From Betaproteobacteria bacterium (GTDB lineage Bacteria > Pseudomonadota > Gammaproteobacteria > Burkholderiales > Ga0077523), in NCBI GenBank assembly GCA_025350245.1, contig JANXYG010000008.1, positions 1 through 32,879 of the forward strand: DNA of 32,879 nucleotides, written 5' to 3'. The first letter of the stretch is position 1; every line of letters begins with the position of its first letter. This document shows positions 35 to 32,879 of the stretch, piece after piece. Made by a program: the position numbers and the translations under genes. A model generated the notes under the pieces. It was not told the origin of the DNA. It searched no databases and worked only from the letters and a program-made list of their open reading frames with translations.

Positions 35-70
35 TTATGCAGGCCTGACCCCAGCGTTCTGACACAAGGC

Positions 71-92: not shown

Positions 93-96
93 CCCC

Positions 97-113: not shown

Positions 114-122
114 CCTAAGTGC

Positions 123-761
123 CTAAGATCCGACTGGCCACTGGCGGCGCATCACCATCACGGCCGCAAGACCCGACAGCAGCAGCGCTACCATCCCGGG
201 CTCCGGTACCGCGGCCACATCGCCAGGGCGTACAGCCAAGGCGTAAAGGTCGAAGTGCTTGCCGGCGGCGTACTGAGCGCCAGTGAGGGTACTGAAGTTC
301 CACGCGGCGCCAGGACTCGGCGCGTACTCCGTACCCGACCAGTAATAGTTGGACTGCAGGTTCTTGAAGGGGCCGGTATTCGACAGCGGTCCGCCTGCCG
401 CATTGCCCAGGGCCGTGTAGTACAGCTCGCCCATCTGGCTACCGGTGCAGTTGTAATTGAAGCCACATCCCGGATCCGCCACGGGCAGCGACCAGCCACC
501 GAACGTTCCCACCGTCAGCCCTGCCGCCCAGTTCCTGGCATCGTCCCAGACCAATCCGGTGTTGTTGCCCGTCAGGTACCACGTCGCATCGAGCACCATG
601 TCGTAGGCGAACTGCGCATCCGCCTCAACCACGGTTGCGTGCCCGCTGATGTCCCGCAGTTCCAGCGCCGCCAGCGCTGACCCTGCCTGTGCCAGTGCGG
701 CTACCGCCAATGCCAGTGTCACGCGCTTGACAGCCGCGTGAAGACCTTTCATGTTCTTCAT
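123..761 (-). CDS. DGR target gene 1: exported DUF1566-like protein with PEP-CTERM tail
   Basis: The 212-residue product starts at the ATG at 761, which has GGAG six bases upstream; the open frame runs further but lacks signals. Residues 1-31 look like a signal peptide (basic, then an Ala/Leu-rich core ending SALA). The middle is a DUF1566/Lcl-type domain (GNNTGLVWDDARNWAA, GGWSLP, YYWSGTEYAP) of the C-type-lectin-like kind used by many DGR targets. Residues 134-180 are encoded by the variable repeat. They are followed at 185-189 by VPEPG, a hydrophobic segment and RR, the PEP-CTERM exosortase sorting signal. The protein is therefore probably exported, processed and displayed at the cell surface. 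It lies on the same strand as the DGR cassette at 30338-32879 but about 31 kb from it. The family and tail are clear; the ligand is unknown. Confidence 0.9.
   Translation of the reverse strand: MKNMKGLHAAVKRVTLALAVAALAQAGSALAALELRDISGHATVVEADAQFAYDMVLDATWYLTGNNTGLVWDDARNWAAGLTVGTFGGWSLPVADPGCGFNYNCTGSQMGELYYTALGNAAGGPLSNTGPFKNLQSNYYWSGTEYAPSPGAAWNFSTLTGAQYAAGKHFDLYALAVRPGDVAAVPEPGMVALLLSGLAAVMVMRRQWPVGS
223..360 (-). repeat. DGR variable repeat (VR1)
   Basis: This stretch aligns without gaps to the template repeat at 31923-32060 (offset 31700). On the coding strand, 17 template adenines between 32016 and 31940 are replaced by other bases, while only one non-adenine position differs in that stretch. 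A few non-A differences lie at the edges (partners of 31931, 32045, 32047, 32053, 32060), which suggests the active VR spans roughly 232-317. The matching GCCCTGG edge at 223-229 is the likely site of the initiation-of-mutagenic-homing end. The substitutions fall in Asn/Asp codons of the lectin-like domain. Confidence 0.95.
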
Positions 762-864
762 CTTGTCTCCAGAGATCGTGTTGTTGCTGGTTCGATCGGC
801 TCGGGGGGGTGAAGAGAGCACAGACGGCTTTCGTCCCTCTTCGGTTCGGGAAAATGCTCTCGAT

Positions 865-886
865 TGTCAAGTTACCCCCCCCCCCC
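865..886 (-). promoter_or_regulatory. Candidate -35 box next to a G12 tract upstream of target gene 1
   Basis: On the minus strand a run of 12 G (886-875) is followed by TAAC and a consensus TTGACA (870-865), about 105 bp before the target start codon. No convincing -10 box is seen at 16-18 bp spacing, so the promoter is a guess from the -35 match. A second run of seven C lies in the presumed leader (809-803). Confidence 0.35.
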
Positions 887-1015
887 GAGATGTCAATGGC
901 AATTGCCCGCAATAGCTGCCGCGTTGTCGGTTTCAGTCTGGTGCCGGCAGCACATGGAGAGCCCCGGACGGGCCTGCATCATTGACGACGAAAGCGGAAA
1001 CGAGCGCCCGTCTGG

Positions 1016-2239
1016 CTATGCGATCGCACCCGCCGCTCGCAACGCCGCGATCCGCGCATCGTTGCATCCCAGCCACTCGCGCAGCACGGCGTCGGTGTGC
1101 TCCGCCAGGCGCGGCGGCGGCAGGCGGTATTCGACGGCACTTTCCGACAAGCGCAACGGACTCGCCACCAGGCCGAGCATGCCGGCAACCGGATCGGGCA
1201 GATCGACCCGCAGGCCGCGCGCCTGCACTTGCGGATCGGCAAACACCGCGGCCATGTCGTTGATCGGCGCGCACGGCACTCCCACCGCCGTGAGGGCTTC
1301 GACCCAGGACGCGACCGGGCGCGCCGCCACGATCGCGGCAACAACGGCGATCACGTGCTCGCGATGGCGAACGCGCGCCTCGTTGGTCGCGAAGCGCGCG
1401 TCGTCCAGCAACCCACGGCAATCGGCCGCGCCGCAGAAGCGCTCGAACTGCGCGTCGTTGCCGGCGGTGAGCATCACGTGACCGTCGCTCGCGTGGAAGA
1501 TCTGCGACGGCACCACGCTCGGATGACCACTGCCTACGCGACCTGAGACGACGCCGGCGCCGAGCCACGCCTGCGCGGTGTTGACCATGGTGGCGACCTG
1601 CACGTCGAGCAACGCCATGTCGACCTGCTGGCCACGGCCGCTGGTCTGCCGATGCATCAGCGCCGCGACGATGCCCAGCGCCGAATACACCCCGGTCATC
1701 ACATCGATGACGGCGATGCCGGCGCGTTGCGGACCACCACCGGGCAGGTCGTCGCGTTCACCGGTCACGCTCATCAAGCCACCCAATGCCTGGGCGATCG
1801 GGTCGTATCCGGGCCGGGGGGCATAAGGACCAGTCTGCCCATAGCCGGTGACGGAGCAATAGACCAGTCGCGGATTCGCCGCCGTGAGCGTGGCATGGTC
1901 GAGGCCGTGGCGCGCGAGGTCACCCACCTTGAAGTTCTCGATCAGCACATCGGCGCCAGCCGCGAGTTCTCGCACCAGCGCCTGACCACCGGCGTGGGCC
2001 AGGTCGATGGCGATCGAACGCTTGCCGCGATTGGCGCACAGGAAATAGGTGCTCTCGCGGGTTTCGTTGCCAGCGGCATCTCGCAGGTAAGGCGGCCCCC
2101 AGGCGCGGGTGTCGTCGCCGCTGCCGGGACGCTCCACCTTGACCACATCCGCGCCGAGGTCCGCGAGGATCTGGCCCGCCAACGGGCCAGCGAGAACCCG
2201 TGTCAGGTCAAGGACCCGGATACCGGCGAGCGGCCCCAT
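1016..2239 (-). CDS. CaiB/BaiF family III CoA-transferase
   Basis: The 407-residue product is a normal-length family III CoA-transferase, which moves CoA between a donor acyl-CoA and a carboxylic acid. The N-terminus (GIRVLDLTRVLAGPLAGQ, then LGADVVKVERP) and the motif RSIAIDL are typical. Asp179 in AGIAVIDVMTG sits where the family's catalytic aspartate is expected. It starts 3 bp after the stop of the Bug-type binding protein gene, so the two are one operon. That pairing, common in Burkholderiales, suggests uptake and CoA activation of an organic acid. The substrate cannot be read from the sequence. Confidence 0.9.
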   Translation of the reverse strand: MGPLAGIRVLDLTRVLAGPLAGQILADLGADVVKVERPGSGDDTRAWGPPYLRDAAGNETRESTYFLCANRGKRSIAIDLAHAGGQALVRELAAGADVLIENFKVGDLARHGLDHATLTAANPRLVYCSVTGYGQTGPYAPRPGYDPIAQALGGLMSVTGERDDLPGGGPQRAGIAVIDVMTGVYSALGIVAALMHRQTSGRGQQVDMALLDVQVATMVNTAQAWLGAGVVSGRVGSGHPSVVPSQIFHASDGHVMLTAGNDAQFERFCGAADCRGLLDDARFATNEARVRHREHVIAVVAAIVAARPVASWVEALTAVGVPCAPINDMAAVFADPQVQARGLRVDLPDPVAGMLGLVASPLRLSESAVEYRLPPPRLAEHTDAVLREWLGCNDARIAALRAAGAIA

Positions 2240-2242
2240 TTG

Positions 2243-3226
2243 CTAGTCGAGTGAAATGCCGGCGCGCTTGACCACCACGGCCCAATACCGGGTCTCGCGT
2301 TTCATCAGCGCCGCGTAGTCGTCGGGGCCGAGCGAACGCGATTCGAAGCCCTGCTCGGCCAGTCGCTGGCGGAATGCGGGGTCGGCCGCGAGCTGCATCA
2401 ACTCGCGGGTGAGGCGCGCGATCACCGGCTTCGGTGTCGACGCCGGCGCGAACACGCCGAGCCATGATTCAGCCAGGTAACCGGGCAGCGCCGCCTCGGC
2501 CATGGTGGGCACGTCGGGCAGCGCGGGAACACGCGCGGCGTTGGTGACCGCCAGCGCCCTGAGCTTGCCTGAGCGGATGTGCTGCAGCGTCGCCGCAACG
2601 CTGTCGAACATCACATTTACCCGCCCCGCGATCAGATCGAGATGGGCCGGCGCGCTGCCTTTGTAGGGCACGTGCACCATGTGGATACCGGCCATGTGCT
2701 GAAACAACTCGCCCTCGAGCTGCGAGATGGTGCCCACGCCCTGCGATGCCATGATCAAGCCTTCGGGCTTCGCCCTGGCGATGGCGATGAGCTGCTTCAC
2801 ATCGGCGGCGCCGATGGCCGGATCGACCACCAGTACATGCGGCACGAACGCGACCGTCGCCACCGGCGCGAAATCGCGCGTCAGGTCGAACTTCGGTCGC
2901 GCGTACAACGATGCGCCTGCCGCATAGACGGTCGACGGTGCCATCAGCAACGTATAGCCATCGGGTGAGGCGCGCGCCACAACTTCGCCGCCGAGCACCG
3001 CGCCGGCACCCGGACGATTCTCGACGATGACGTTCTGACCGAGCCGCTTGCCGAGCGCATCGGCGGTGAGGCGCGACAGAATGTCGGTGGCGCCGGCCGG
3101 GGTGAATGGCGCGATCAGCCGCACCGGACGGAGCGGCCAGGGTTCGTCTGCCTGCGCATTTGCCAGGATGAGGATCAGGCTCGACACTGCTGCGCACCAA
3201 AGCGCCCGCTGCAGACTGCGGCTCAA
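2243..3226 (-). CDS. Bug/TctC family tripartite tricarboxylate-type solute-binding protein
   Basis: The 327-residue product is a periplasmic Bug receptor. I place the start at the TTG at 3226 because GGGGAGAA stands just upstream and the protein then opens with a signal peptide (about 25 residues, ending ANAQA). The mature part shows family motifs: PVRLIAPFTPAGATDILSR, then VENRPGAGAVLGGEVVA, SPDGYTLL, and VPYKGSAPAHLDLIAGRV. No TctA/TctB membrane genes are adjacent, which is usual for orphan Bug proteins. It is co-transcribed with the CoA-transferase downstream. Bug proteins bind small carboxylates or related solutes; the ligand here is unknown. Confidence 0.9.
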   Translation of the reverse strand: MSRSLQRALWCAAVSSLILILANAQADEPWPLRPVRLIAPFTPAGATDILSRLTADALGKRLGQNVIVENRPGAGAVLGGEVVARASPDGYTLLMAPSTVYAAGASLYARPKFDLTRDFAPVATVAFVPHVLVVDPAIGAADVKQLIAIARAKPEGLIMASQGVGTISQLEGELFQHMAGIHMVHVPYKGSAPAHLDLIAGRVNVMFDSVAATLQHIRSGKLRALAVTNAARVPALPDVPTMAEAALPGYLAESWLGVFAPASTPKPVIARLTRELMQLAADPAFRQRLAEQGFESRSLGPDDYAALMKRETRYWAVVVKRAGISLD

Positions 3227-3361
3227 GCGATTCTCCCCGGGATGCTGGCGATGTCCAGCCGGATGGGACTCTATCGCTGGAGGCCGGAGACCACAACGTT
3301 CGATCGTGACGGAGAAGGGCAACGCGGGACTGAGCCGCGCTCAGCACCGCAGTGTCCCCCG

Positions 3362-3418
3362 AGGATGCTGCGCCCCCTGGAGGGGAAAGCCTCAGCGCAG
3401 CGCAGGCCGGGGGGGGGG
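3362..3418. repeat. Intergenic GC-rich repeat ending in a G10 tract
   Basis: The stretch contains CGCCCCCTGGAGGGG, CAGCGCAGCGCAGG and a run of ten G (3409-3418). It resembles REP-like palindromic intergenic repeats of betaproteobacteria and lies just downstream of the outer-membrane gene, where it may act as a terminator. The family assignment is from memory. Confidence 0.4.
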
Positions 3419-3426
3419 ACGCCACC

Positions 3427-4398
3427 TCAGAAGCGGACGCTGGCCCCGGTAACCACGGCCCAGTCGGCGGTCAATTGCACGCCATTGACATAGCGATACA
3501 AAGGTAACTGCACGAAACCGTAGGCCTGGATGTCGCGGGTGATGGCGACCGCCAGACCCGGGCTGGCCAGCAGCGTGAGCCCGCCGCTCAGTGCGGATTC
3601 GGCGTTGGCGCCGGACTCGCGATTGCGCGCCAATACGTTGAGCTGGAACAAGGCAGCCACCCGCTGCGTCAGCGGATGGCGCACGCCGAGGTTCAGGGTA
3701 TAGAGATCACCCGGGCGGTACTGATCGCGAATCACCACCGCGTGCTGCACCGCGATCTGGGCGAACAGGCTGGTTCCGGCGCCGACGTGCGGCGTGGTCC
3801 ACAAGGCACCGAGAATCAGGTCGGTGCTGCCGGTGCCCGGCTGGAGCATGCGCTCGGCCACCACGCCGCCGCCATTGGCGACCTTGTACTCTCCGGTGGG
3901 AAACTTGAGTCCGAACTGCAATGCAAGCGAGGAACCGGCGGCGGCGAGGTCTGCAACGCGATAGCGCCCGACGACGCGCAAGTCACCGCGCTCCCGAAAC
4001 TGCCACGCCTCGGGCTCGGCAGTTCCGGTGGGGTCTGCGATGTGCGCGTGCGAGCGGTTGATCAGCGGTAGTTGCGCCGTGAGTCCCCACCACGGCGAGA
4101 ACGCGTGGTCGAGCGTCGCCACCAGATTGCGGTTGTAGGTGTACTGCTCGGCCGCTTCATGGTCGATGGCGATCGCCTCGTCGCGGGTCGGCGTGCGGTT
4201 GCCGGCACGCAGCCGGTCCTGCCGGATGAACTCGTAGCGCAGGTCGAGCACGGTGGCGCCACCGCCGCGCTCGAGATCGTGAGCGTCCCAGGTGGTGTTG
4301 AGCGTGCAGAAGGCCGAACCGCAGCCGGCGTTGGCAGGCGCGCAGATGAGCAAGGCGCTGCTGCCGACGACCAGACCTGCGAGCAGGACATTTTTCAT
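3427..4398 (-). CDS. Predicted outer-membrane beta-barrel protein
   Basis: The 323-residue product starts at the ATG at 4398 (MKNVLLAGLVVG), followed by a signal peptide ending near APANA. No strong Shine-Dalgarno is visible. The mature protein has a short Cys-containing N-terminus (CGSAFCTLN) and then alternating amphipathic strands rich in aromatic and small residues. It ends in Phe (VRF), as outer-membrane barrels recognised by the BAM complex do. It looks like the phenol-degradation MetA-like/transporter family of barrels. Its neighbours, zwf upstream and the Bug gene downstream on the same strand, do not reveal a role. Confidence 0.7.
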   Translation of the reverse strand: MKNVLLAGLVVGSSALLICAPANAGCGSAFCTLNTTWDAHDLERGGGATVLDLRYEFIRQDRLRAGNRTPTRDEAIAIDHEAAEQYTYNRNLVATLDHAFSPWWGLTAQLPLINRSHAHIADPTGTAEPEAWQFRERGDLRVVGRYRVADLAAAGSSLALQFGLKFPTGEYKVANGGGVVAERMLQPGTGSTDLILGALWTTPHVGAGTSLFAQIAVQHAVVIRDQYRPGDLYTLNLGVRHPLTQRVAALFQLNVLARNRESGANAESALSGGLTLLASPGLAVAITRDIQAYGFVQLPLYRYVNGVQLTADWAVVTGASVRF

Positions 4399-4485
4399 GC
4401 GCCCGAGTGTAGCGGGCAGCCCGTCGGCCGGTAATGCCATCGGCTGCGGCCAATGGTCGCAGCGCCGGCCCAAGGCCGGCACCGC

Positions 4486-6030
4486 CTATGTCACCGCGCC
4501 AGCGCCTTCCGGGTCGATCCAGTGCCGGCCATCCCGGATGAGCATCTGTGCCGCGGCCTCCGGCCCCCAGCTGCCCGCCGCATAGTTGGGAAAGTCCCTG
4601 GGCGGTAACGCCTGCCAGAGGTCGATCACCGGCGTCAGGACATCCCAGGACTCCTCCACCATATCGGCGCGCAGGAACAGCATGCGATTGCCGACCATGC
4701 AGTCGTGGATCAGGGTCTCGTAGCCGGTGGCACGCCCGTCGCTGCCCAGATCGTCGTAGCTGAAGGCCATCTCGACCTGCGCGAGATGGTTGCCCGGCCC
4801 GGGCCGCTTGGCCTGGAAGCGCAGTTGTATCCGCTCCTGCGGCTGCACCTGGATGGTGAGGCGATTGGCGTGCTGCATCGTCTCGGTCGGCAGCAAGGCG
4901 AGCGGCGCGCGACGGAACTGGATCACGATCTGGGTGTTACGCGCCGGCAGGCGTTTGCCGGTGCGCACGTAGAACGGCACGTCGGCCCAGCGCCAGTTGT
5001 CGATATGCAGCTTAAGTGCAGCGAAAGTCTCGGTGGCGGATCCGGGCGCGACATGCGCCTCGTCGCGGTAGCCGGCCACGGTTTCACCGCCCAGCATGCC
5101 GGCACTGTATTGCCCGCGCACCGCATCGCGCAGCAAGGCTTCCTCCTGCGGTCGGCGCATCGCCCGCAGCACCTTCACCTTTTCGTTGCGGACTTCCTCG
5201 TTGCCGAGAGAAGACGGTGGCTCCATCGCAATGAGACACAGCACCTGGAAGACGTGGTTCTGAACGATGTCGCGCAAGGCACCCTGCGTGTCGTAGTAGC
5301 GCCCGCGGTTCTCGACACCCAGGGATTCGGCGACGGTGACCTGCACATGATCGACGTAGTTGCGATTCCAGATCGGCTCGAAGATCCCGTTCAGGAACCG
5401 GAAGCTGAGAAGGTTCTGCACCGTCTCCTTGCCGAGGTAGTGGTCGATCCGGTAAATCTGCGATTCGTCCATGCAGGCGAGCAGTTCGCCATTGAGAGCG
5501 CGCGCCGACGCGAGGTCGCGGCCGAAGGGCTTTTCGACCACCATGCGAAACCAGCTGCCGTCGGGGGCTCGGTCACCTCCCGGCGCAATCAGGCCGGCCC
5601 CTTGCAGACCACGCGCGATCGGCGCGAACTGATCCGGCGGCACCGCGAGATACACCAGCACGTTGCCCCTGGTTCCATGGCTGGCGTGCACCTGCTCGAG
5701 TCGCTCCTTCAGCCGCTGATAGGTAGCGGAATCTTCGGTACGCCCGGCCAGATAGTGCAGACGCGGCGTGGCGGTGCCGAGAAACCCGACATCGGCGCAG
5801 TCTTCGCAGTGTCGGCTGATCGACGCCGCGGCACGTTCGCGAAAGGTTTCGTCGCTCAGACTCGAGCCGGAAACCCCGATCACCGCGAACTCGTTCGGCA
5901 GGAAGCCGTTGCGATGCAGGTTGTAGAGGGCGGGAATGAGCTTGCGCTGCGTGAGATCGCCGGAAGCGCCGAAGATCACCATCACGCAGGGCGGCGCCGC
6001 GGTGACGGTAACGGTTGGGAGAGAGTCCAT
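4486..6030 (-). CDS. zwf: Glucose-6-phosphate 1-dehydrogenase
   Basis: The 514-residue enzyme oxidises glucose 6-phosphate to 6-phosphogluconolactone, making NADPH at the entry to the oxidative pentose phosphate and Entner-Doudoroff routes. I chose the ATG at 6030 because GGAAGG lies 5 bases upstream; the frame is open beyond it. The dinucleotide loop GASGDL is at residues 21-26, EKPFGRD at 166-172 and the active-site signature RIDHYLGKE at 194-202. The length fits the family. The gene stands without pgl or edd neighbours here. All key motifs are intact. Confidence 0.97.
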   Translation of the reverse strand: MDSLPTVTVTAAPPCVMVIFGASGDLTQRKLIPALYNLHRNGFLPNEFAVIGVSGSSLSDETFRERAAASISRHCEDCADVGFLGTATPRLHYLAGRTEDSATYQRLKERLEQVHASHGTRGNVLVYLAVPPDQFAPIARGLQGAGLIAPGGDRAPDGSWFRMVVEKPFGRDLASARALNGELLACMDESQIYRIDHYLGKETVQNLLSFRFLNGIFEPIWNRNYVDHVQVTVAESLGVENRGRYYDTQGALRDIVQNHVFQVLCLIAMEPPSSLGNEEVRNEKVKVLRAMRRPQEEALLRDAVRGQYSAGMLGGETVAGYRDEAHVAPGSATETFAALKLHIDNWRWADVPFYVRTGKRLPARNTQIVIQFRRAPLALLPTETMQHANRLTIQVQPQERIQLRFQAKRPGPGNHLAQVEMAFSYDDLGSDGRATGYETLIHDCMVGNRMLFLRADMVEESWDVLTPVIDLWQALPPRDFPNYAAGSWGPEAAAQMLIRDGRHWIDPEGAGAVT

Positions 6031-6222
6031 GCGCGGCCTTCCGTTGGAACAGGAACCCGAGTGTAGTGGGTGCCGGACGACACGCAAAAAAAGAGCGCCT
6101 GGGGTCGGGGATGCCCGGGGCGCTCGAGGAGGAGGAGGAGACTTCGAACCGGCAGCAGATGCGGGGTTCTCGCGGCGACTCGCTGCCCGGGGTCGCCGTA
6201 CTCGACGAAACAGACGTTCCGT

Positions 6223-9813: not shown

Positions 9814-10824
9814 TCAGAGACTTTCCAGGAACGCCAGGACCGGGTCGCTGGGGCGATAGCGTTTGTGCCTGGTGCCGGGTGGAGCAATGGTGGCCAGCGC
9901 GCGCGCCTTCATCGCCAGATCAGCCTCGACGTAGCCGTGGGTGGTGACCGGGCTCTCGTGACCCAGCCACAAGGCGATCACCGTGATGTCGACGCCGGCT
10001 TGCAACAGGTGCATGGCAGTGGTGTGGCGCAGGGTATGCGGAGAGACCTTGCGGCCGTGCAACTGCGGGCACTGCTGCGTGGCCGCGGTGAGCGCCAGGG
10101 TGAGCCGCTCGGCGGCATTCGTGCGCGTCATCGGTAGTCCGCAGCGATTGGGCACCAGGGGTTGATCGGCGCGCAGGTTGGCGTAGTCGAGCCAGTGACG
10201 GATTTCGGCGGCGGTTTCCTTCCACAGGGGCACAGTGCGTTGCTTGCGGCCCTTGCCATGCAGCCGCACCGAGGATGTGGACGCGAGCGTGACATCGGCA
10301 ACCCGGATACCGGTCAATTCGGAAACCCGGGCGCCGGTGTTGTAGAGCACCGCGAGCATTACCCGGTCGCGGCGGCCACACCAGGTCCCCAGGTCCGGAG
10401 CGGCGAGTACGGCCTGGACCTCATCGCGGGAGAGAAACCCGAGCAGGGGTTTCTCGAAACGTTTCATCGGTATCGCCAGGATCTGCTGAGCCAGATGCAG
10501 GGCCGGCGGACATTGCAAGGCCACATAGCGGGCAAAGGCGCGCACCGCGGCCAATCGCGCATTGCGGCTGCGCACCGTGTTGTGGCGTTCGGTTTCCAGG
10601 TACGCGAGGAAGTCCAGTACCAGTGTCGCATCGACGTCATTGAGCGCCAGCTTGGCCGGTGGTTTGCCGGTTTCGCGTTCGGCATAGCGCAGCAGCAGCC
10701 GGAAGGTGTCGCGATAGGCCATCACAGTTCTAGGGCTGGCGTTGCGGTGCTGGAGCAGCCGCTCGGCAAAGAAGCGCTCGAGCAATTTGGCGAATTCGGC
10801 GGGGTCTGCGAGCAAGGGGTTCAT
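9814..10824 (-). CDS. RIT tyrosine recombinase, third gene (RitC-like)
   Basis: The 336-residue product starts at the ATG at 10824, which overlaps the ritB stop (ATGA); the frame upstream is only open by chance. It has an N-terminal SAM-like DNA-binding domain (LLQHRNASPRTVMAYRDTFR) and a complete catalytic domain: Arg in NTGARVSELTG, Lys in GKGRKQRTVPL, HTLRH, WLGHES, and the nucleophile Tyr in THGYVEAD. All catalytic positions of a tyrosine recombinase are present. In RIT elements the three recombinases are thought to act together in moving the element. It is the only apparently intact one here. Confidence 0.92.
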   Translation of the reverse strand: MNPLLADPAEFAKLLERFFAERLLQHRNASPRTVMAYRDTFRLLLRYAERETGKPPAKLALNDVDATLVLDFLAYLETERHNTVRSRNARLAAVRAFARYVALQCPPALHLAQQILAIPMKRFEKPLLGFLSRDEVQAVLAAPDLGTWCGRRDRVMLAVLYNTGARVSELTGIRVADVTLASTSSVRLHGKGRKQRTVPLWKETAAEIRHWLDYANLRADQPLVPNRCGLPMTRTNAAERLTLALTAATQQCPQLHGRKVSPHTLRHTTAMHLLQAGVDITVIALWLGHESPVTTHGYVEADLAMKARALATIAPPGTRHKRYRPSDPVLAFLESL

Positions 10825-11742
10825 TGCGGCGCTCCCTGGGCGTAGTGGTGGAAGCGCCCGGCGGCGATGGCCATCAGTTCGGGGATGCCGGTGAAGTACC
10901 AGTAGGTGTCGCTCACCTTGGCGTGTCCGACGTAGGCCGATAGCGCCAGTACGGCGTGGTCGGCATCGATGCCCTGCTGGTAGAAGCGCAGGGTGCTGCG
11001 CACGATGAAGGTGTGGCGCAAGTCGTGTAGGCGGTGGTGCGGGTAGTCGCCACGGGGCTGCCACCCCAGTTGCCGGCATAGCATTTGCAAGGCGTGGAGC
11101 ATGCCGGCCTGATTGGCCGCGTGGCCGTCACCGCGCAGGAAGAACCGGTCGCAGGCAGGTCGGGGCAGGAGCCGGTCGCGCTGCTGGGCATAGGCACTCA
11201 GGCACTGCGTGACGCTCGGATGCAGCGGCACCAGACGTTGCCGGTGGAACTTGGCGTCCCGGATCCGGAGCACGCCAGCCGCGAGGTCGGCGTCGGCGCG
11301 TGTCAGCGCCAGCGCCTCGGAGATACGCAGCCCGCTTGCGGCGAGCAATCCGAAGACGCACCGGCAAGTGGCGGGACGCATGCCGTGCGGCGGCGCCAGA
11401 CTATCAGCCGCCTCGAGCAGCGCGATCAGCTCCGCCTCGGTGTAGATGTGCGGCACCAAGCGCCGGTGGGCCGGGCGGCGGCATCTGCGTCGCCGGATCC
11501 ACACGCAGGCAAAAGCGCGCGAAGCCGCGCAGAACTTCGATGCGGCGCGCCCAGGTGAGCGGATTCGGTCGCCGAGAAGCCTGCGCCCACGCGACGGCCA
11601 GCGCCACCGTCAGATGATCCTGCTCGCCGGTCTGGTCGGCGAAGCGGGCAAACGATCTGAGCCGCGTCTCGTCGATGGTGAGCTTGAATCCGTGACTGCG
11701 CCGGTACGCCAGGTACGTCTCGACGCAGACCACAGCGAACAA
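10821..11742 (-). pseudogene. RIT tyrosine recombinase, second gene (RitB-like), frameshifted
   Basis: The N-terminal part reads from about 11742 (TTG; VCVETYLAYRRSHGFKL, then RIEVLRGFARFCLRVDPATQ) in one frame. Near 11475-11485, in a CCGCCGCCCGG context, the homologous reading moves by one base to the frame that gives PAHRRLVPHIYTEAELIALL and runs to the TGA at 10821. The catalytic half keeps Arg in ASGLRISEALAL, HDLRH, YVGH and a C-terminal Tyr (DTYWYF). One extra base explains the shift. It may be decay, a sequencing error, or less likely a programmed shift. The 5' end is also fused to truncated ritA. Confidence 0.8.
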
Positions 11743-12784
11743 AGGCGCGGTTCATCGCAGTGCGGATGGCCGGCACGCTCAGCGGTTTGTCAAACGGTGC
11801 ACGATGCCGAACGAACACAGCACGGTGTTCGGTCTGCGGTCGTCCCTCACGCAAGTACCGGGCGATTGCCGCACCGGTGGATACTGGCAAGGGCAACTGC
11901 TGCACGCGTTGGCTCTTGGTGCCGCTGATGGTGAGCGTCGCGTCGCGCCAGTCCAGTGATTCCAGTGTCAGGTAGGTCACTTCATGGCCGCGCAAGCCCA
12001 GGTCGGCCAGGCAGCGCGCGATGGCGTAGTCGCGCAGCCCGACCGGATCAGCGCGGTCGAACGCCGCCAGGAACGCTTCCAGCTCGTCGTCGGAGAGGAC
12101 TTTGGGCAAGGTTGACCGGCCCCAGTGCGCCACTCTGGGCAGCGCCGCCGACAGCGCCGCGGTCGGCTCGCCCAGCAGGCAGCGGTACCGAAAGTAGCTG
12201 CGCAGACTGTTACAGACGCCTCGAAGCGATGACGGCCGCAGGTGTGCGCTCAGTTCGGCAAAGTACGCGTCCAGCTGTCCCACGGACAGCTGCGAGACCA
12301 CCGGTGTCTGGGTTCCAAATGCCCAAACGAGGAACGCACCGGCGTGTTGCACCCGGCGCTCACGAGTGATTGGCGCCACCCCGCAGATGTTCGACAGGTA
12401 GTCGCCAAAGCGTTCGAGTTCGACCGCAACGGGATCGGCAGCCGCCGTTGCTGGACCTTCGCAGGGCAGCAGTCTGAGCAAGTGCCGCAGTGCCGCGCCC
12501 GAGTTGGAAACCGTGCGATAGCACGGTGCCGGGCAAGTACAGGCAGGGAGGTGCTCACGCAGGAAGCGCTTGACGAGCGACGACTCGAGCCTCGATGGCT
12601 CGATCGATTCGGCCGTCATCCAATAGCTGAAATGGGCCAGGCAGCCCAAGTAGACGCGGATGGTGGTGTCGGGATAGCGCTGATTGCGCAGCGCTTCGAT
12701 GTAGGGAACAACGACGCCGTCGAGCGGGCCTTCAGTGAGCCAGTCGCAACGGGTAAGCGTCGCCAAGCATCTATCGGTATCCAT
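11426..12784 (-). pseudogene. RIT tyrosine recombinase, first gene (RitA-like), catalytic end deleted
   Basis: The frame starts at the ATG at 12784, with AGGAG six bases upstream, and is recombinase-like for about 348 residues. These comprise an N-terminal SAM-like region, then VLSDDELEAFLAAFD, the first catalytic Arg in ADLGLRGHEVTYL and SGTKSQRVQQLPLP. At AMNRAFVRCGL (about 11740) the expected continuation with HxLRH, GH and the Tyr nucleophile is absent. Instead the sequence passes straight into the 5' part of ritB read in the wrong frame, giving a meaningless Arg/Ala-rich tail to 11426. The simplest explanation is a deletion of about 300 bp across the ritA-ritB junction. The product would be inactive. 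Confidence 0.82.
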
Positions 12785-15979: not shown

Positions 15980-16412
15980 CGCCCACCCGGATCAGCCCGC
16001 CCACCAGCACCCGCGCGGTGATGCCGCCGCGGTCGCGCATCGCCTCGAAGCCGCCCTCGCCCAGCGCCTCTTCCATCCGCGAGCACGGGTCGCACAGGCC
16101 GGTGGTTTCGAACAGCGCCTCGCCGATGCGAAAGCGCGCGAACCGCAGCGCGAGCAGGTCGGTGCCGGACACCACGAGGTTGCGCCGCAGCAGCGCCGGA
16201 TCGATGGGCGGGAGGTCGAGCTGCTGCGCGATCATCGGCAGGTGCTCGGCCTGTATCAGCGACACCTGCCGCGGCTTGCCCGACCGGACCGAGGCCCGGT
16301 CACCTTCGAAGCCCCGGTTGGCGATCGCTAACACACTGCGAACCACCAGCGGTGGCTGGCGCCGCTGCGGCCGGACCGCGATCCACTCGATCCGTCCGCC
16401 CTCCGGGGTCAT
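15927..16412 (-). CDS. MOSC domain protein
   Basis: The 161-residue product is a stand-alone MOSC domain, the sulfur-carrier fold of molybdenum cofactor sulfurases. It shows NRGFEGDRASVRSGKPRQVS, RRNLVVSGTDLLAL, TGLCDPCSRMEEALG with the conserved cysteine, and RGGITARVLVGGLIRVGD. It starts 22 bp after the pyruvate carboxylase stop and is probably co-transcribed with it. The last residues (PVVRLVRRGLG) may derive from the deletion that fused it to the PEP-CTERM remnant. The substrate is unknown. Confidence 0.88.
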   Translation of the reverse strand: MTPEGGRIEWIAVRPQRRQPPLVVRSVLAIANRGFEGDRASVRSGKPRQVSLIQAEHLPMIAQQLDLPPIDPALLRRNLVVSGTDLLALRFARFRIGEALFETTGLCDPCSRMEEALGEGGFEAMRDRGGITARVLVGGLIRVGDALVPEPVVRLVRRGLG

Positions 16413-16434
16413 GGCGCGAGGCTCGGGTCCGGGG

Positions 16435-19400
16435 CTACTGGTATTCGATCAGCAGGTCGCGGGCGGCGATCACGTCGCCGTTGCGCACATGGATGTTCTT
16501 GATGGTGGCGTCGCGTTCGGCCCGGATCTGGGTTTCCATCTTCATCGCCTCGATCGAGGCCAGCGGGTCGCCGGCCTTCACCGCCTGCCCCGGCTTCACG
16601 CTCACGGTCGCGATCATGCCGGGCATCGGCGCGGCCACATGATGCGGATTGGCGGGGTCGGCCACGGCGCGCTTGACTGCGGTGCGGGTGGCGCCCGCCT
16701 TCTCGATCCGGATGGTGCGCGCTTGGCCGTTGAGCTCGAAGTCCACTCGCACGACGCCTTCGTCCTCGGCCGGCGCGGTGCCCTGCATGCGGATCACCAG
16801 CGTCTTGCCGGCATCGATGTCGACGCTGATCTCCTCGCGCTCGGCCATGCCGTAGAAGAACGCCGGCGTTGGCAGCGCGCTGGTGTCGCCGTATTGCCGC
16901 TGATGGTCGGCGAACTCGCGGAACACCTTCGGGTACATCAGGTACGACGCGAGGTCGGCGTCGCTCACGTGGCGCCCGATTGCCTTCTCGGCGTCCTTGC
17001 GGGCCTGATCGAGGTCGACCGCCGGGATCGAGTCGCCCGGCCGGTAGGCGGCCGGCGGGTCGCCGCGCAGCACCTTGCGCGACAGCACCTCCGGAAAGCC
17101 GTCGGGTGGAAACCCGAGTTCGCCCTTGAACAGCGACACCACCGCATCGGGAAAAGCCACCTCGCGGTCCGGGTCCATGACGTCTTCGGCGCTCAGGTCA
17201 TTGGTCACCATGAAGATCGCCATGTCACCCACCACTTTGGACGTGGGCGTGACCTTGACGATGTCGCCGAACAGACGGTTCACCTGAGCGTAGCAGCGCG
17301 ACACCGCCGGCCACCGGGTCTCGAGGCCCATGGCGCGCGCCTGCTCGCGCAGATTGGTGTACTGGCCGCCGGGCATCTCGTGGCTGTACACGTCGGAGGT
17401 ACCGGCGCGGATATCGGACTCCCACGGCGCGTAGTACTTGCGCACGCCTTCCCAGTAGTGCGACAGGGCGCGCAGCGACTCGCGATCGACGCCCGCATCG
17501 CCGGCGCACGGATCGCGCTCGGTACCTTCGAGCGCGGCCACGATCGAGCCGAGGTTCGGCTGCGAGGTGAGGCCGCTCATGCTGTCGAGCGCGCCATCGA
17601 CGGCATCGGCCCCGGCCTCGATGGCGGCCAGCACCGAGGCTGCCGACATGCCGCTGGTGTCGTGGGTGTGGAAATGCACCGGCAACCCGGTTTCATGCTT
17701 GAGCGCATGCACCAGTTCGCGGGCCGCGCGCGGGCGCACCAGCCCGGCCATGTCTTTCAGGCCGAGGATATGCACGCCGGCCTGCTTCAGCTCGCGCGCG
17801 AGCTTCAGGTAGTAGTCGAGGCCGTACTTGCGGCTGCCGTCGAACAGGTCGGCGGTGTAGCAGATGGCGCCCTCGCACAGCGCGCCGGTCTCGAGCACCG
17901 CGTCGATCGAGACGCGCATGTTGCGCACCCAGTTGAGCGAGTCGAACACGCGAAAAAGGTCGACGCCGTTGGTGTGCGCCTGCTGCACGAAGTAGCGCAC
18001 CACGTTGTCGGCGTAGTTGGTGTAGCCCACCGCGTTAGAGCCGCGCAGGAGCATCTGCAGCAGCACGTTGGGCACGCGGGCGCGCAACTGCGTCAGGCGC
18101 TGCCACGGATCCTCGTTGAGAAAGCGCATGGCGACGTCGAAGGTCGCGCCGCCCCAGCACTCAAGCGAGAACAGGCCGGGCACCAGCCGTGCGTAGTGCG
18201 GGGCGATGCGCACCATGTCGGCGCTGCGCATGCGGGTGGCGAACAGCGACTGATGCGCGTCGCGCATGGTGGTGTCGGTGAGCAGGACGCGCGGCTCGGC
18301 CAGCATCCATTGCGCGAAGCCCTCGGCGCCCAGCGCCAGCAACCGGTCGCGCGAACCCGGGCGGGGTGCCTGGGTGAGGTCAGTTTTCGGCAGGATCAAA
18401 TGGGCGTGCGACAGGTCGGGCCGGATGCGGCCCTTCATGTCGGGATGACCGTTCACGATGACCTCGCCCAGGTGCCGCAGCAAGCGCGTCGCGCGATCGC
18501 GCCGATGGCTGAACTTGAACAGCTCGGGCGTGGTGTCGATGAAGCGGGTGGTGATCCGGCCGGCGACGAAATCCGGATGGTTGATGACGTTCTCGACGAA
18601 CTGCAGGTTGGTCGCGACGCCGCGCACCCGGAACTCGCGCAGCGCCCGGTCCATGCGGTGGATGGCTTCCTGCGGCGTCGGTGCGGACGCCGTCACCTTC
18701 ACCAGCAGCGAGTCGTAGTAGGGCGTGATGACGGCGCCGGTGTAGGCCGTGCCGCCATCGAGGCGGATGCCGAAGCCGGCGGCGCTGCGGTAGGCGGTGA
18801 TGCGACCGTAGTCGGGCGTGAAGTCGTTCTCGGGGTCTTCGGTGGTGACGCGGCATTGCAGCGCATGGCCGTTGAGCCGGATGTCTTCCTGCTTCGGCAC
18901 CGGGCAATCGGCGCCGCCGATGCGCGCGCCCTCGCTCACCCGGATCTGCGACTTGACCACGTCGATGCCGGTCACCTGTTCGGTGACGGTGTGCTCCACC
19001 TGAATGCGCGGATTGACCTCGATGAAATAGAAGTCGTCGGTGTCGGCATCCATCAGGAACTCGACGGTGCCGGCGTGGGTGTAGCGGACGGCGCGGCCGA
19101 GCCGCAGTGCGGCGTCGCAGAGCGCGGCGCGTTGCGCCGGGGTGAGGTAGGGCGCGGGCGCGCGCTCGACCATCTTCTGGTTGCGCCGCTGCACCGAGCA
19201 GTCGCGCTCGAACAGGTGCACGAGGTTGCCGTGGCGGTCGCCCATCAACTGCACTTCGACGTGGCGGGCACGCCGCACCAGCTTTTCGAGGTAGACCTCG
19301 TCGTTGCCGAACGCGGCGCCGGCTTCGCGCCGCGCGATCTCGAGCTGGGCGTCGAGGTCGGCTTCGTTCTCGATCACGCGCATGCCGCGGCCGCCACCGC

Positions 19401-19947
19401 CCCAGGAGGCCTTGAGCATCAGCGGATAGCCGATAGCCCCGGCCATGCGCCGGCATTCGGCGGCATCGCGCGGCAGCGGCGCGGTGGCAGGCATGACCGG
19501 AACCCCTGCGGCCACGGCTGCGTGGCGCGCGGCGACCTTGTTGCCGAGCGTGGTCATCACCTCGGGCGTGGGCCCGATGAAGGTGATGCCGGCCTCGCCG
19601 CAAGCGCGGGCGAAGTCGGGGTTCTCCGACAGGAAGCCGTAGCCGGGATGGATGGCATCGACCCGGGCGAGCTTGGCGATGCGCAGCACGTCGGCGATGT
19701 CGAGATAGGCCGCCAGCGGCTTGCGGCCCTCGCCCACGAGATAGCTCTCGTCGGCCTTGAAGCGGTGCAGGGCAAAGCGGTCTTCCTGCGAGTAGATGGC
19801 GACGGTGCGGATGCCGAGTTCGGCGGCGGCGCGCATCACGCGGATGGCGATCTCGGAGCGGTTGGCAACGAGGATGGAGCGGATCGTGGAACTCAAGGTG
19901 GCGGATTCACGTGATGCGGAGGTTGCTGGTCGATACCCGGTGATCAA
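16435..19947 (-). CDS. pyc: Pyruvate carboxylase, single-chain
   Basis: The 1170-residue enzyme carboxylates pyruvate to oxaloacetate using ATP, bicarbonate and biotin. In order it has a biotin carboxylase domain (SILVANRSEIAIRVMRAAAE, the ATP loop SWGGGGRGM, FIEVNPRIQVEHTVTEQVTG), a carboxyltransferase TIM barrel (TTMRDAHQSLFATRMR, FHTHDTSGMSAASVLAAIEA) and a C-terminal biotinyl domain with SIEAMKMETQ, Lys1136 being the biotin site. The start is uncertain: TTG at 19947 has GAGGGA upstream, while TTG at 19896 gives SSTIRSILVANR, closer to the usual N-terminus. It lies downstream of maeB on the same strand; the repeat array 19994-20125 separates them. Confidence 0.96.
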   Translation of the reverse strand: MITGYRPATSASRESATLSSTIRSILVANRSEIAIRVMRAAAELGIRTVAIYSQEDRFALHRFKADESYLVGEGRKPLAAYLDIADVLRIAKLARVDAIHPGYGFLSENPDFARACGEAGITFIGPTPEVMTTLGNKVAARHAAVAAGVPVMPATAPLPRDAAECRRMAGAIGYPLMLKASWGGGGRGMRVIENEADLDAQLEIARREAGAAFGNDEVYLEKLVRRARHVEVQLMGDRHGNLVHLFERDCSVQRRNQKMVERAPAPYLTPAQRAALCDAALRLGRAVRYTHAGTVEFLMDADTDDFYFIEVNPRIQVEHTVTEQVTGIDVVKSQIRVSEGARIGGADCPVPKQEDIRLNGHALQCRVTTEDPENDFTPDYGRITAYRSAAGFGIRLDGGTAYTGAVITPYYDSLLVKVTASAPTPQEAIHRMDRALREFRVRGVATNLQFVENVINHPDFVAGRITTRFIDTTPELFKFSHRRDRATRLLRHLGEVIVNGHPDMKGRIRPDLSHAHLILPKTDLTQAPRPGSRDRLLALGAEGFAQWMLAEPRVLLTDTTMRDAHQSLFATRMRSADMVRIAPHYARLVPGLFSLECWGGATFDVAMRFLNEDPWQRLTQLRARVPNVLLQMLLRGSNAVGYTNYADNVVRYFVQQAHTNGVDLFRVFDSLNWVRNMRVSIDAVLETGALCEGAICYTADLFDGSRKYGLDYYLKLARELKQAGVHILGLKDMAGLVRPRAARELVHALKHETGLPVHFHTHDTSGMSAASVLAAIEAGADAVDGALDSMSGLTSQPNLGSIVAALEGTERDPCAGDAGVDRESLRALSHYWEGVRKYYAPWESDIRAGTSDVYSHEMPGGQYTNLREQARAMGLETRWPAVSRCYAQVNRLFGDIVKVTPTSKVVGDMAIFMVTNDLSAEDVMDPDREVAFPDAVVSLFKGELGFPPDGFPEVLSRKVLRGDPPAAYRPGDSIPAVDLDQARKDAEKAIGRHVSDADLASYLMYPKVFREFADHQRQYGDTSALPTPAFFYGMAEREEISVDIDAGKTLVIRMQGTAPAEDEGVVRVDFELNGQARTIRIEKAGATRTAVKRAVADPANPHHVAAPMPGMIATVSVKPGQAVKAGDPLASIEAMKMETQIRAERDATIKNIHVRNGDVIAARDLLIEYQ

Positions 19948-30337: not shown

Positions 30338-31909
30338 TCAATGCCCGGTACGCGCGGATGACCTGACTGTCGTCGGCGCTGCCCATGCCTCGTTGCGATC
30401 GGAGCAGCGAGCCACCCAGCGCAGTGCCGGTGTCCGCCGCCGCAGACCGCCGGTGTCGGTGCCCCGCTGTCCGACAACGATGACCTGCCCGCCGGCCGCC
30501 ACCAGCGCCGCGCGCCGCCTGGCCAATTGCGACAGCGGGAACCCTTCGATCGCGCCGCGGCGCGGCGAGCCCATCCGGCGCAGGCCCAGGTTTTCCCGGA
30601 TACCGCGTTTGCCCAGCCGCCGCGGCGGCCACTGCAAGCGCTCCACGAAGGCGCCGACCTGAATCCAGACCACATCGTCGGGATATTCCTGCCGCCAGTG
30701 CCGGTATTGCTGCTGTACCGTCCGCGCCTGCGCCGGTGCCCGGTCGCGTCGCCGCAGGCGCAGCGACTGCCGATCCAGGCCGAAGAAGGTGTCGAGCCAG
30801 GGGTTGCGCGCCAGGATGGCGGTCAACAGCCGGTTGCAGGAGGCCCGGGCGAAATGTCCGAGGTACGAAGCCAGGCTCGCCTGCAACGCATCGAGCACCG
30901 CGGCATCGAAGCGATACTCGGTGGCATCCGCGCGCTGCCGGACCAGCACACGCTCGCTGCGCGCCAGCGTCTCGCACAGGTGCCCGACCACGCGCCGCCG
31001 CACCAGCAGGTGAAACGGCCGCACGATGTAACCGAGGAAATCCACGCCGTCGGTCACCGGGCGCAGCCGCTCGCGCCGCGGGTTCAGCCGCAGCGCGAGA
31101 CGCTCCTCGAGGAAATGCGCGATCTCCTCTTTCCATACCGCCAGTTGCCCGGGTGAGTGTCCGACCAGCACGAAGTCGTCGCAGTAGCGAAGGTACCCGC
31201 GGCATTTGAGCTTGTGCTTGACGAACTGATCCAGTGCGTTCAGATAGACGTTGGCGAAGAATTGGCTGTTCAGGTTGCCGATCGGCAGGCCCTTGCCCGG
31301 CGGCGCGCGGAACAGCGTCTTTTCCGGCGGCAGCCGATCGATCAGGCGTGGGTCGCCTTTCATCACCGGCGCGAGCGTGCAGTCGTGGAACACGAGCTTG
31401 CGGGTGAGCCAGAGCGCCTCTTCATCCTCCTCTCGCCGCGGCTTCAGTCGCGCCTCGACCATCTCGAACAGGCGCGCCTTGTCGATGCTCATGAAGTAGT
31501 TGCGGATGTCCAGCTGCAGCGTCCACGCCTCGCGTGTGCCGTTGGCGGTGGCCTCGCGCATGAACTGCTGCAGCCGCGCCACCGCGTTGTGGACGCCCTT
31601 GCCCTTGCGGCAGGCGTAGGAGTCGTGAATGAACACCGGCTCCCAGATCCGTTCGAGATGGCTCACCAGCACATGGTGAACCACGCGATCGCGGAAATCG
31701 GCCGCGAACACCTCGCGCAGTTTCGGCCGTTGTACAAAGAAGCAGACAGAACGTCCCGGTTCGTAGCTGCGATCGGCGAGCGCGTCACGCAGCGCCAGCA
31801 GGCTCAACTCCTGCCGTGCCTCGAAGCGCAGCGCGTTGGCCGTGTTGCGCTTGTTGCGGCGGCAGGCGAGGTACTGCCGGTACAGGTTCTCCAGCGAGAA
31901 CAGCGACAC
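30338..31909 (-). CDS. Diversity-generating retroelement reverse transcriptase with MutS-domain-I-like C-terminus
   Basis: The 523-residue product starts at the GTG at 31909 (SLFSLENLYRQYLACRRNKR), the usual DGR-RT opening; no ATG lies in frame. The catalytic motifs are LQLDIRNYFMSID (Asp134) and RYCDDFVLVG (242-245). Motif 4 is GLPIGNLNSQFFAN (207-220), the IGxxxSQ form typical of DGR enzymes rather than the QGxxxSP of group II introns. It copies TR RNA with errors at adenines, working with Avd. Residues 398-480 (QQQYRHWRQEYPDDVVWIQV, LGLRRM, EGFPLSQL, AAGGQVIVVGQ) resemble MutS domain I. The last 20 residues may be out of frame: an alternative frame ends ADDSQVIRAYRALNGE at 30327. Confidence 0.97.
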   Translation of the reverse strand: MSLFSLENLYRQYLACRRNKRNTANALRFEARQELSLLALRDALADRSYEPGRSVCFFVQRPKLREVFAADFRDRVVHHVLVSHLERIWEPVFIHDSYACRKGKGVHNAVARLQQFMREATANGTREAWTLQLDIRNYFMSIDKARLFEMVEARLKPRREEDEEALWLTRKLVFHDCTLAPVMKGDPRLIDRLPPEKTLFRAPPGKGLPIGNLNSQFFANVYLNALDQFVKHKLKCRGYLRYCDDFVLVGHSPGQLAVWKEEIAHFLEERLALRLNPRRERLRPVTDGVDFLGYIVRPFHLLVRRRVVGHLCETLARSERVLVRQRADATEYRFDAAVLDALQASLASYLGHFARASCNRLLTAILARNPWLDTFFGLDRQSLRLRRRDRAPAQARTVQQQYRHWRQEYPDDVVWIQVGAFVERLQWPPRRLGKRGIRENLGLRRMGSPRRGAIEGFPLSQLARRRAALVAAGGQVIVVGQRGTDTGGLRRRTPALRWVARCSDRNEAWAAPTTVRSSARTGH

Positions 31910-31922
31910 GGGGCATCATCCT

Positions 31923-32060
31923 CCAGGGCGCACAGCCAATGCGTAAAGGTCGTTGTTCTTGTCGTTGGCGTTCTGATTGCCATTGTTGGTATTGAAGTTC
32001 CACGCGTTGCCCGGATTCGGCGCGTACTCCGTACCCGACCAGTAGTCGTTGGGCTGCAGC
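31923..32060 (-). repeat. DGR template repeat (TR)
   Basis: The TR lies between avd and the RT gene, its near end 13 bp from the RT start. Read in the VR frame it encodes WSGTEYAPNPGNAWNF, then NTNNGNQNANDKNNDLYALA. The Asn codons (AAC/AAT) place adenines at the first two codon positions, as DGR templates do. It aligns without gaps to the VR at 223-360. It acts as RNA template rather than protein; the surrounding open frame (to 32314) begins at a chance TTG. The 250 bp between it and avd hold no other gene and probably form part of the TR RNA leader. Confidence 0.95.
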
Positions 32061-32310
32061 GAAGTCCACCCACTTCCCCCGCCAAGGCAGACTCGCAAGC
32101 GGCGGGGCCACCGGCAGTCGATCCCGTCGCCGGGTACGGCTGCCTGAACAATCATGCCCGCGCGACCCCGGGGAGCAGACTCCACGATGTCGGTTTGTTC
32201 GCGGGCGGGATGGACGCACGATGATGAAACTTCGGCACGCTGATCGCCCCGGCCGAATCCTGCGCCCGGCGCGTGGCGATCATTCAGGCCCCCATGCAAC
32301 GCACGCGCAG

Positions 32311-32673
32311 TCAACCCTTGCCCTGCGTGTGCTTGAACCAGCCTTCGTTCTGTCTGGCCACCGAACCCACCTGCTCGACCGCATGCAGGTAGCCGGCAAA
32401 ACTCTTGAACGCCTTCACTTCCTTGGCCACGCGCAGCGTCAGGATGAGCGCCTCGATACGCTCGCGCAACACCTGCAACTCCGCCTTGCGCTCGACCGCG
32501 CCGGGCGCGTTGTTGGCCTTGACCACCTGCTGCACCACCGCCCGGCTGCCGTCGCGAAGTTCGGTGCCGAGGGTGTATTTGTGGTAGCGCGAGAACCCCG
32601 CCACCACTTTCTCGAAGTGCACCGTCAGATCGAGCGCCGCCTTGTAGATCGGCAGGTGCTCGTAGCGCGCCAT
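32311..32673 (-). CDS. avd: DGR accessory variability determinant (Avd), four-helix bundle
   Basis: The 120-residue product (MARYEHLPIYKAALDLTVHF, then VVAGFSRYHKYTLGTELRD, AELQVLRERIEALILTLRVA, KSFAGYLHAVEQVGSVARQN) matches the Avd/S23-like four-helix bundle family. Avd forms a basic pentameric barrel that binds RT and TR RNA and is required for mutagenic homing. Its place between target and TR is canonical. The ATG at 32673 has only a weak ribosome-binding site (GGGGG), so translation may depend on the upstream target transcript. Confidence 0.93.
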   Translation of the reverse strand: MARYEHLPIYKAALDLTVHFEKVVAGFSRYHKYTLGTELRDGSRAVVQQVVKANNAPGAVERKAELQVLRERIEALILTLRVAKEVKAFKSFAGYLHAVEQVGSVARQNEGWFKHTQGKG

Positions 32674-32700
32674 CCGGAAACCCCCGATAAACCGAACGTT

Positions 32701-32784
32701 CCGGGGGCTGTTGCCCCCGGACCCCCTCGAACGCCCGAGGCTATCGCCCCGGACCCACTCAAACAGCCGGGGCTATCGCCCCGG
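32701..32784. repeat. Array of GC hairpins between target gene 2 and avd
   Basis: Three stems stand in a row: CCGGGGGC-TGTT-GCCCCCGG (32701-32720, perfect 8 bp), an imperfect CGAGGC-TATC-GCCCCG (32737-32752) and CCGGGGC-TATC-GCCCCGG (32767-32784, perfect 7 bp). The GGACCC spacer recurs between them. The last one with its downstream sequence is homologous to 71-122 beside target gene 1. They may assist VR recognition or stabilise the transcript end. Confidence 0.75.
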
Positions 32785-32789
32785 ACCCC

Positions 32790-32805
32790 AAAAGGGCCGA
32801 AGCCC
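32790..32805 (-). terminator. Intrinsic terminator of target gene 2
   Basis: On the minus strand GGGC-TTCG-GCCC is followed by TTTT, 10-25 bp after the target stop. It equals the terminator at 97-113. If efficient, avd and RT would need read-through or their own promoter. Confidence 0.55.
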
Positions 32806-32814
32806 CCGAAGCGC

Positions 32815-32879
32815 CTAAGTGCCCACTGGCCGCCGACGCATCACCAGCACGCCCGCAATCCCCGACAGCAACAGGGCAA
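32815..32879 (-). CDS. DGR target gene 2, 3' tip only (PEP-CTERM tail)
   Basis: The last 21 codons read ALLLSGIAGVLVMRRRPVGT before a TAG at 32815-32817, nearly the same as the end of target gene 1 (ALLLSGLAAVMVMRRQWPVG). This is the hydrophobic and basic part of a PEP-CTERM sorting tail. The gene continues beyond the window's right edge. Since it stands directly upstream of avd-TR-RT and shares its 3' region with target gene 1, it is almost certainly the cassette's local target, with its VR just outside. Confidence 0.85.
   Translation of the reverse strand, partial: ALLLSGIAGVLVMRRRPVGT

Follow-up and report, generated by a model that had tools for sequence, protein, structure and literature searches.

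Introduction

Diversity-generating retroelements (DGRs), among them the BPP-1 DGR, generally share the order target gene, hairpin, avd, template repeat (TR) and reverse transcriptase (RT), together with an SQ motif in the RT, adenine-biased differences between the TR and a variable repeat (VR) in the target, and a GC-rich hairpin with a GRNA loop (PMC3240598; this and the other papers below are cited from excerpts). Several VRs are recorded in 271 of 948 DGRs (PMC6642488), gene duplication has been proposed as the likely origin of multi-VR systems (PMC3521204), and contig surveys are said to miss remote DGR targets (PMC8144416). The present analysis concerns a DGR cassette at positions 30338-32879 of a 32,879-base contig (JANXYG010000008.1, assembly GCA_025350245.1) of a Betaproteobacteria bacterium, whose genome comprises 3.99 Mb in 156 contigs and is 95.84% complete. 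This entire contig, here C116, is referred to as the window; other C-labels denote contigs of the same genome and L-labels denote compared loci. The element is of a known kind in an unusual and informative form, and it is very probably a cellular DGR that rewrites exported, PEP-CTERM-tailed binding proteins of the Lcl_C type, partly in trans.

The locus has the order, SQ motif and adenine bias described above, with the hairpin type found at VR1 and VR3 but lost at VR2, and it differs from known systems in several respects. Compared with the BPP-1 DGR, its RT carries an additional C-terminal MutS domain I (523 residues, against 328 in the 8ub7 chain), and, compared with BPP-1 and DGRs in general, a sorting tail follows the VR and several targets are remote. 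The hairpin lies about 130 bp from the VR, whereas in phage DGRs, including BPP-1, it lies 4-34 bp away and has a GRNA loop (PMC3240598). Cellular multi-VR DGRs also contain several VRs, but here whole cassettes are found in decay among the copies, and the targets have sorting tails and promoter G tracts in common. The targets resemble the substrates of exosortases in their C-terminal PEP motif, hydrophobic stretch and Arg cluster, but differ from them in being the target of a DGR. Among the matches listed from open-licence literature, seen in excerpt, no DGR combining tailed targets, a shifted hairpin and promoter tracts was found, and no open-licence paper joining a DGR with PEP-CTERM or exosortase was found.

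Layout and identity of the cassette

All parts of the cassette are located on the minus strand. The RT gene occupies 30338-31909 (523 amino acids; coding 30341-31909, GTG start, stop at 30338-30340) and is separated by 13 bp from the end of the TR (31923-32059; 137 bp with 38 adenines), upstream of which lie avd (32311-32673; 120 amino acids) and the 3' end of a cis target gene (32815-32879), whose last codons, LLLSGIAGVLVMRRRPVGT followed by the stop, are truncated by the contig edge. The original prediction of a complete DGR cassette was right about its parts, since target 3' end, hairpins, avd, TR and RT are all present, but not about completeness, because the contig ends inside the last codons of the cis target and thus before its VR. 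The portion of this gene inside the window holds no VR; judging from the sister gene at the opposite end of the contig, the VR would start about 36 bp beyond the contig edge. A complete VR-bearing target at 123-761 of the same window had been overlooked.

The IGxxxSQ and YCDD motifs attributed earlier to the RT were both located, as IGNLNSQ at 31262-31282 (residues 210-216) and YCDD at 31175-31186. The protein matches Pfam RVT_1 at 3.5e-15 (56.7 bits, exceeding the cut-off of 29.6), and its best match among solved structures, at 1.5e-38, is the RT of 8ub7 and other entries, which we take to be the BPP-1 DGR RT, with the runner-up at 3.4e-10. Phylogenetic placement had been set beforehand as one of the tests that could refute a DGR identity; in a tree of 109 rows, in which 2 of the 80 cellular loci were omitted as too short, 20 of the 80 viral loci were included, and the BPP-1-like and C78 rows were flagged for long branches, 102 DGR rows including the window RT were split from seven group II intron RTs at 100/100. 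The window RT groups with those of L067 (Burkholderiaceae bacterium) and L068 (Azohydromonas sediminis) at 94/72 and with L065 and L066 at 100/99, within a clade of 25 rows (100/99). The neighbouring gene product matches the Avd families PF22296 (bAvd) at 1.1e-07 and NCBIfam DivGenRetAVD at 4.2e-07, in agreement with the Avd-type protein previously proposed, although below the curated cut-offs; comparison of Avd with solved structures gave no useful match. With the SQ motif, the adenine-biased repeats, avd and an RT within the DGR clade, identification as a DGR stands.

A frameshift at the 3' end of the RT gene, prompted by a plausible tail in another frame, was considered and not supported, because in many relatives the RT terminates around residue 490, and longer tails are also present in the four nearest, L065-L068.

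Template and variable repeats

A search of the 3.99-Mb genome with the TR returned three long matches besides itself, of 128-130 bp, with E values from 4.6e-33 to 7.7e-26. These are VR1 in the window (223-359, minus strand), VR2 on C32 and VR3 on C42. Over 137 bp, 17, 16 and 18 of the 38 TR adenines are changed in VR1, VR2 and VR3, respectively (Fisher p 1.4e-07, 1.2e-05 and 2.2e-06 for the comparison with the 99 other bases), and 10, 9 and 11 of the 12 TR Asn codons are altered. The adenine-rich repeat earlier read as a TR is thus borne out by three VRs in other genes with adenine-biased differences. TR/VR pairs were recovered in 67 of 82 loci; L065 and L066, the closest relatives, share this layout, and their repeats differ at 20 and 16 adenines and at no other base. 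Among the three VRs of the genome, agreement at non-adenine sites amounts to 0.93, 0.90 and 0.95, compared with 0.85, 0.84 and 0.83 in the upstream coding DNA (p 0.018, 0.081 and 0.0012).

Target proteins and sorting tails

The complete target gene at 123-761 (minus strand) encodes 212 amino acids, arranged as an N-terminal secretion-type helix, an Lcl_C domain, the VR and a PEP-CTERM tail. The tail scores 19.6 bits against TIGR02595 (PEP-CTERM), above the cut-off of 16, and 18.6 against PF07589, under the cut-off of 20.7; the structure model of the whole protein is poor, with a predicted local distance difference test (pLDDT) score of 58.4.

The tail characterises the clade. Among 45 loci with a readable target, all 14 relatives within the clade have 81-112 nucleotides of coding sequence after the VR, whereas outside the clade the VR lies within 10 nucleotides of the end of the open reading frame (ORF) in 28 of 31 loci. 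Tails of 10 of the 14 clade targets were scanned: seven score above the PEP-CTERM cut-off, one is of VPLPA-CTERM and one of IPTL-CTERM type, and that of L068 has no match.

The MutS domain of the reverse transcriptase

The RT ends in a domain at approximately residues 392-502 (30404-30736, minus strand) that includes the sequence VGAFVE (F421, E423; 30641-30658, minus strand). Phe-x-Glu is the mismatch-reading motif of MutS. Over the whole genome, Pfam MutS_I has two matches only, both at C-termini of DGR RTs (C86 and C116), and the RT on C86 reaches 3.2e-7 (28.2 bits, above the cut-off of 20.6). The family is matched by 29 of 32 aligned homologous C-termini. An AlphaFold2 model of the domain (pLDDT 78.8) retrieved only MutS in the top rows of a Foldseek search, with a best E of 1.6e-3 and none at E 0.001, and VIA-align gave Z scores of up to 11.6 against domain I of MutS and MSH3/MSH6, with the next unrelated fold at 4.5. 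As modelled, the RT C-terminus is a MutS domain I fold.

The distribution of the domain was assessed in the best 80 of 121 cellular loci and the best 80 of 570 confirmed viral loci, both ranked by full-length RT, a ranking which favours RTs carrying the domain. A domain profile was found within the RT ORF of 57 of the 80 cellular loci, and in two more in another frame just downstream (59 of 80), but in none of the 80 viral loci. Among the phage (55) and plasmid (34) records with a match, no single place covers 80% of the window RT. On the RT tree, the domain label requires three changes, compared with an average of 23 for shuffled labels; the domain looks old in DGR RTs, with later losses. Of 58 domains, 43 retain the Glu and 37 a Phe or Tyr, so that, judged by these residues, a good part of the family is without the motif. 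In the selected alignment A2, built from two own-genome rows and 30 of the 59 loci whose C-termini are long, Glu is kept in 32 of 32 rows, a count that is biased because the 29 omitted loci had truncated or degenerate domains.

Loss of the host MutS as a reason for the fused domain was considered and rejected. No MutS (MutS_V) was found in the genome itself, which is most likely an assembly gap; MutL is present, and MutS_V matches were obtained in all eight same-genus genomes tested and in all 29 genomes that carry a fused domain, with those in G212, G214 and G227 weak or partial and some of the 29 possibly MutS2. The MutS domain itself is not claimed as new, because Wu et al. (2018) reportedly named a MutS-like DGR accessory (MSL). 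No fusion of RT and MutS was found among the matches listed in open-licence papers, seen in excerpt, on generating retroelements and MutS. A study that reconstituted a DGR in an assay used a mutS deletion to favour retention of substitutions; this deletion left repair of an 18-nucleotide insertion reporter unaffected (PMC12875486).

Hairpins

The GC-rich hairpins of the cassette lie at 32700-32805, after the cis target stop codon, and comprise, on the minus strand, a hairpin with a 9-bp stem and AACA loop (32700-32721), a GATA-loop hairpin with one stem mismatch (32735-32752), another with a 7-bp GC stem and a GATA loop of GRNA type (32767-32784), and a short, terminator-like TTCG-loop hairpin with TTTT (32794-32805). 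GATA-loop hairpins are also located about 130 bp downstream of VR1 (71-92, minus strand, 9-bp stem) and VR3, with stems GGAGGC/GCCTCC and GGGGGC/GCCCCC, respectively. A hairpin past the tail, 120-139 bp from the VR, was detected in 9 of 15 clade loci, where 0.22 would be expected, and in 1 of 45 loci outside the clade, where the expectation is 0.44. GRNA fits only four of the nine clade loops; the remainder are G-initial variants. At the left contig edge, about 180 bp past VR1, a nearly perfect inverted repeat of 18 bp, paired at 17 of 18 positions around an AAAA loop, occupies positions 1-40.

G tracts in putative promoters

Upstream of the complete target, a putative promoter at 869-896 (minus strand) consists of TTGACA (891-896), a 16-bp spacer containing G12 (875-886) and TAACTT (869-874). 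A G tract between the putative -35 and -10 boxes is present in 5 of the 6 own-genome targets with upstream sequence, with tracts of G12, G10, G12, G10 and G8 in spacers of 16, 14, 16, 17 and 15 bp. G/C runs of at least 8 are otherwise rare, with two across 55.9 kb of further loci from this genome and one more in the window. Among 21 clade loci, the layout is matched by L075 alone, a Nevskiales relative with TTGACG, ATTTGC and G11, and TAGCTT before its target, this being the sole such run in 13.5 kb; L073 and L077 have one C run each, also upstream of the target, in a different setting. Because phase variation is known to arise from slippage within promoter spacers, we infer that slippage in the G tract may switch the targets on and off.

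Copies and other retroelements in the genome

A search of the genome with the target protein returned 14 places. Complete targets are found at the left end of C116 and on C32, and a nearly complete one on C42; those on C111, C118, C144 and C145 are cut by the contig end in their 5' part, only tails are present at the right end of C116 and on C142 and C143, and relics without VR occur on C46 and at C32:13681. Both C144 and C145 share exactly 141 bases with the edge of C42, a length that probably reflects the word size of the assembler; at least one of the two thus continues into C42, and the target loci are counted as at least five. C111 (L245, 1-1908) stops at the first six VR bases and has no exact overlap with the right edge of C116; variation of the VR in the population could have broken the assembly there.

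A broken sister cassette on C142 (L044, C142:69000-73182; 2632-4183, minus strand) has three deletions, with 6-10 shared bases at each junction, which removed two internal segments of the RT as well as the TR together with the beginning of the RT; its avd is 97% identical to that of the window. The sequence just upstream of the window TR (32112-32140) is identical at 28 of 29 positions in this copy, where the TR is missing. On C42 and C143, avd is cut at an identical junction, hence this unit was duplicated once more after its truncation. RT fragments 61-82% identical to the window RT, some with stop codons, lie near the ends of contigs C53, C60, C12 and C111 of G171, a second genome from this order, which suggests a similar repeat family and probably several DGR copies.

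Two further DGRs were observed in the genome. One, on C86 (L045, C86:28000-36500; 3182-6163, minus strand), has an Lcl_C target with VR, avd, TR and RT, and its TR and VR differ by 13 adenine changes and one other. The other lies on C78 (L046, C78:4000-12000; 1-4612). Its two VRs are altered at 18 and 14 adenines and at 0 and 1 further bases, an avd-like ORF (2956-3408) is encoded by the other strand, and its RT is shorter by the length of a MutS domain; this DGR appears to have been active more recently than that of the window.

Elsewhere in the window, two adjoining genes of the phage-integrase family (9814-11079 and 11426-12784, minus strand) raise the possibility that the contig is in part a mobile island. 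At 16018-19947, long ORFs of 1298 (plus) and 1170 (minus) amino acids overlap on the two strands, and the plus-strand product has no Pfam match at 1e-5.

Proposed mechanism and alternative explanations

Following the known DGR mechanism (PMC8144416, PMC3240598), RNA of the TR would be reverse transcribed with errors arising at template adenines, and the cDNA would replace the VR next to the hairpin; the codons thereby altered on the binding surface would be mainly those for Asn. With less assurance, the MutS domain may hold duplexes that contain mismatches (cDNA:VR or RNA:cDNA) while retrohoming proceeds, which would let the mutated copy evade rejection by the host MutS or be extended past mismatches. 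Slippage in the promoter G tracts would turn targets on and off, and spread of the cassette through the genome by duplication would have produced the target loci, of which there are at least five, as well as several copies now in decay. The joint reading is that a clade of cellular DGRs unites three layers of variation in a single surface-protein system: the RT's own MutS domain lets mismatched cDNA survive host mismatch repair, rewriting in trans reaches surface proteins of the exosortase type at several loci, and slippage-prone promoters switch the variants. This reading is a tentative one that we consider rather improbable as a whole.

Several observations weigh against the proposal. The Avd matches, at 32.7 and 30.2 bits, stay under their curated cut-offs of 40 and 80, as does the Lcl_C match of the target (3e-05, 24.7 bits; cut-off 34.9), and the window RT by itself reaches only E 0.168 and 13.8 bits against MutS_I, below the cut-off of that family. 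No exosortase was found in a search of the genome, although all eight same-genus genomes tested have one, and the absence is probably an assembly gap. The C32 target has no G tract in its 17-bp spacer, and the hairpin of VR2, on the same contig, has lost its right arm, so VR2 may no longer be a target. The 96 bases downstream of the VRs agree at 0.90-0.91, like the non-adenine sites of the VRs, and homogenisation by homing is therefore weakly supported. VR1, VR2 and VR3 differ from the TR at 5, 8 and 9 of 99 non-adenine sites; these differences and the broken second copy call for caution about current activity. The earlier suggestion that the core parts are intact and could be active accordingly holds for RT, avd and TR, which are open, while the 5-9 non-adenine differences of the three known VRs speak against it. 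The cassette could be a decaying remnant with open genes in which homing no longer takes place and the VRs have ceased to change; we regard this as unlikely, though with real points in its favour, including the contrast with L065 and L066 and with the 0 and 1 differences of C78, the C142 copy without TR and RT parts, and the damaged hairpin on C32. Six non-adenine differences are common to VR2 and VR3, two of them also present in VR1, and could be taken as a further mark of decay, but an older or sister TR would account for them. On the simplest reading of these common differences, such a TR was the source and the VRs were not written recently from the present one. A remnant is opposed by the unbroken RT, avd and TR of C116, which extend over 2 kb, and the cis VR, lying outside the assembly, may be up to date.

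As to the MutS-like domain, it may no longer read mismatches and may merely help RNA/DNA binding or RT folding, an explanation to which we give a little under an even chance: the motif is gone in a second group of relatives, as the Glu and Phe or Tyr counts above indicate, phage DGR RTs manage without the domain, and the rest of MutS is missing, whereas the motif is kept in the window clade (F421-V-E423), along with the invariant Glu of the selected alignment. The G tracts, likewise, might be incidental, carried along with duplicated genes and switching no expression. The own-genome targets are paralogues, so five of six are not five events, and the tractless C32 target, a weak -10 box and the lack of a G/C run at this place in 8 of 11 clade relatives checked (L085 being without upstream sequence) point the same way; but the tracts vary in length from 8 to 12 in spacers of 14-17 bp, and the layout recurs in the phylogenetically distant L075, whose 13.5 kb contain no second run of this kind; together, these points leave an incidental origin doubtful. 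That the RT stems from a group II intron or retron is extremely improbable: the best NCBIfam model is indeed the group II family TIGR04416, at 101 bits, far under its cut-off of 300, but the tree, the SQ motif, avd and the adenine bias all contradict it.

Significance

DGRs have to place heavily mismatched cDNA into the chromosome of a cell equipped with mismatch repair. Mismatch repair can act against RT-made cDNA, because deletion of mutS in E. coli raised retron editing 21-fold (PMC6868368). The MutS domain, fused to many cellular DGR RTs and absent from the 80 best viral relatives, enables a direct test of repair evasion. If the proposal of a DGR rewriting exported binding proteins is true, the tailed targets, together with possibly phase-variable promoters, would give DGRs a role in surface display in beta- and gammaproteobacteria.

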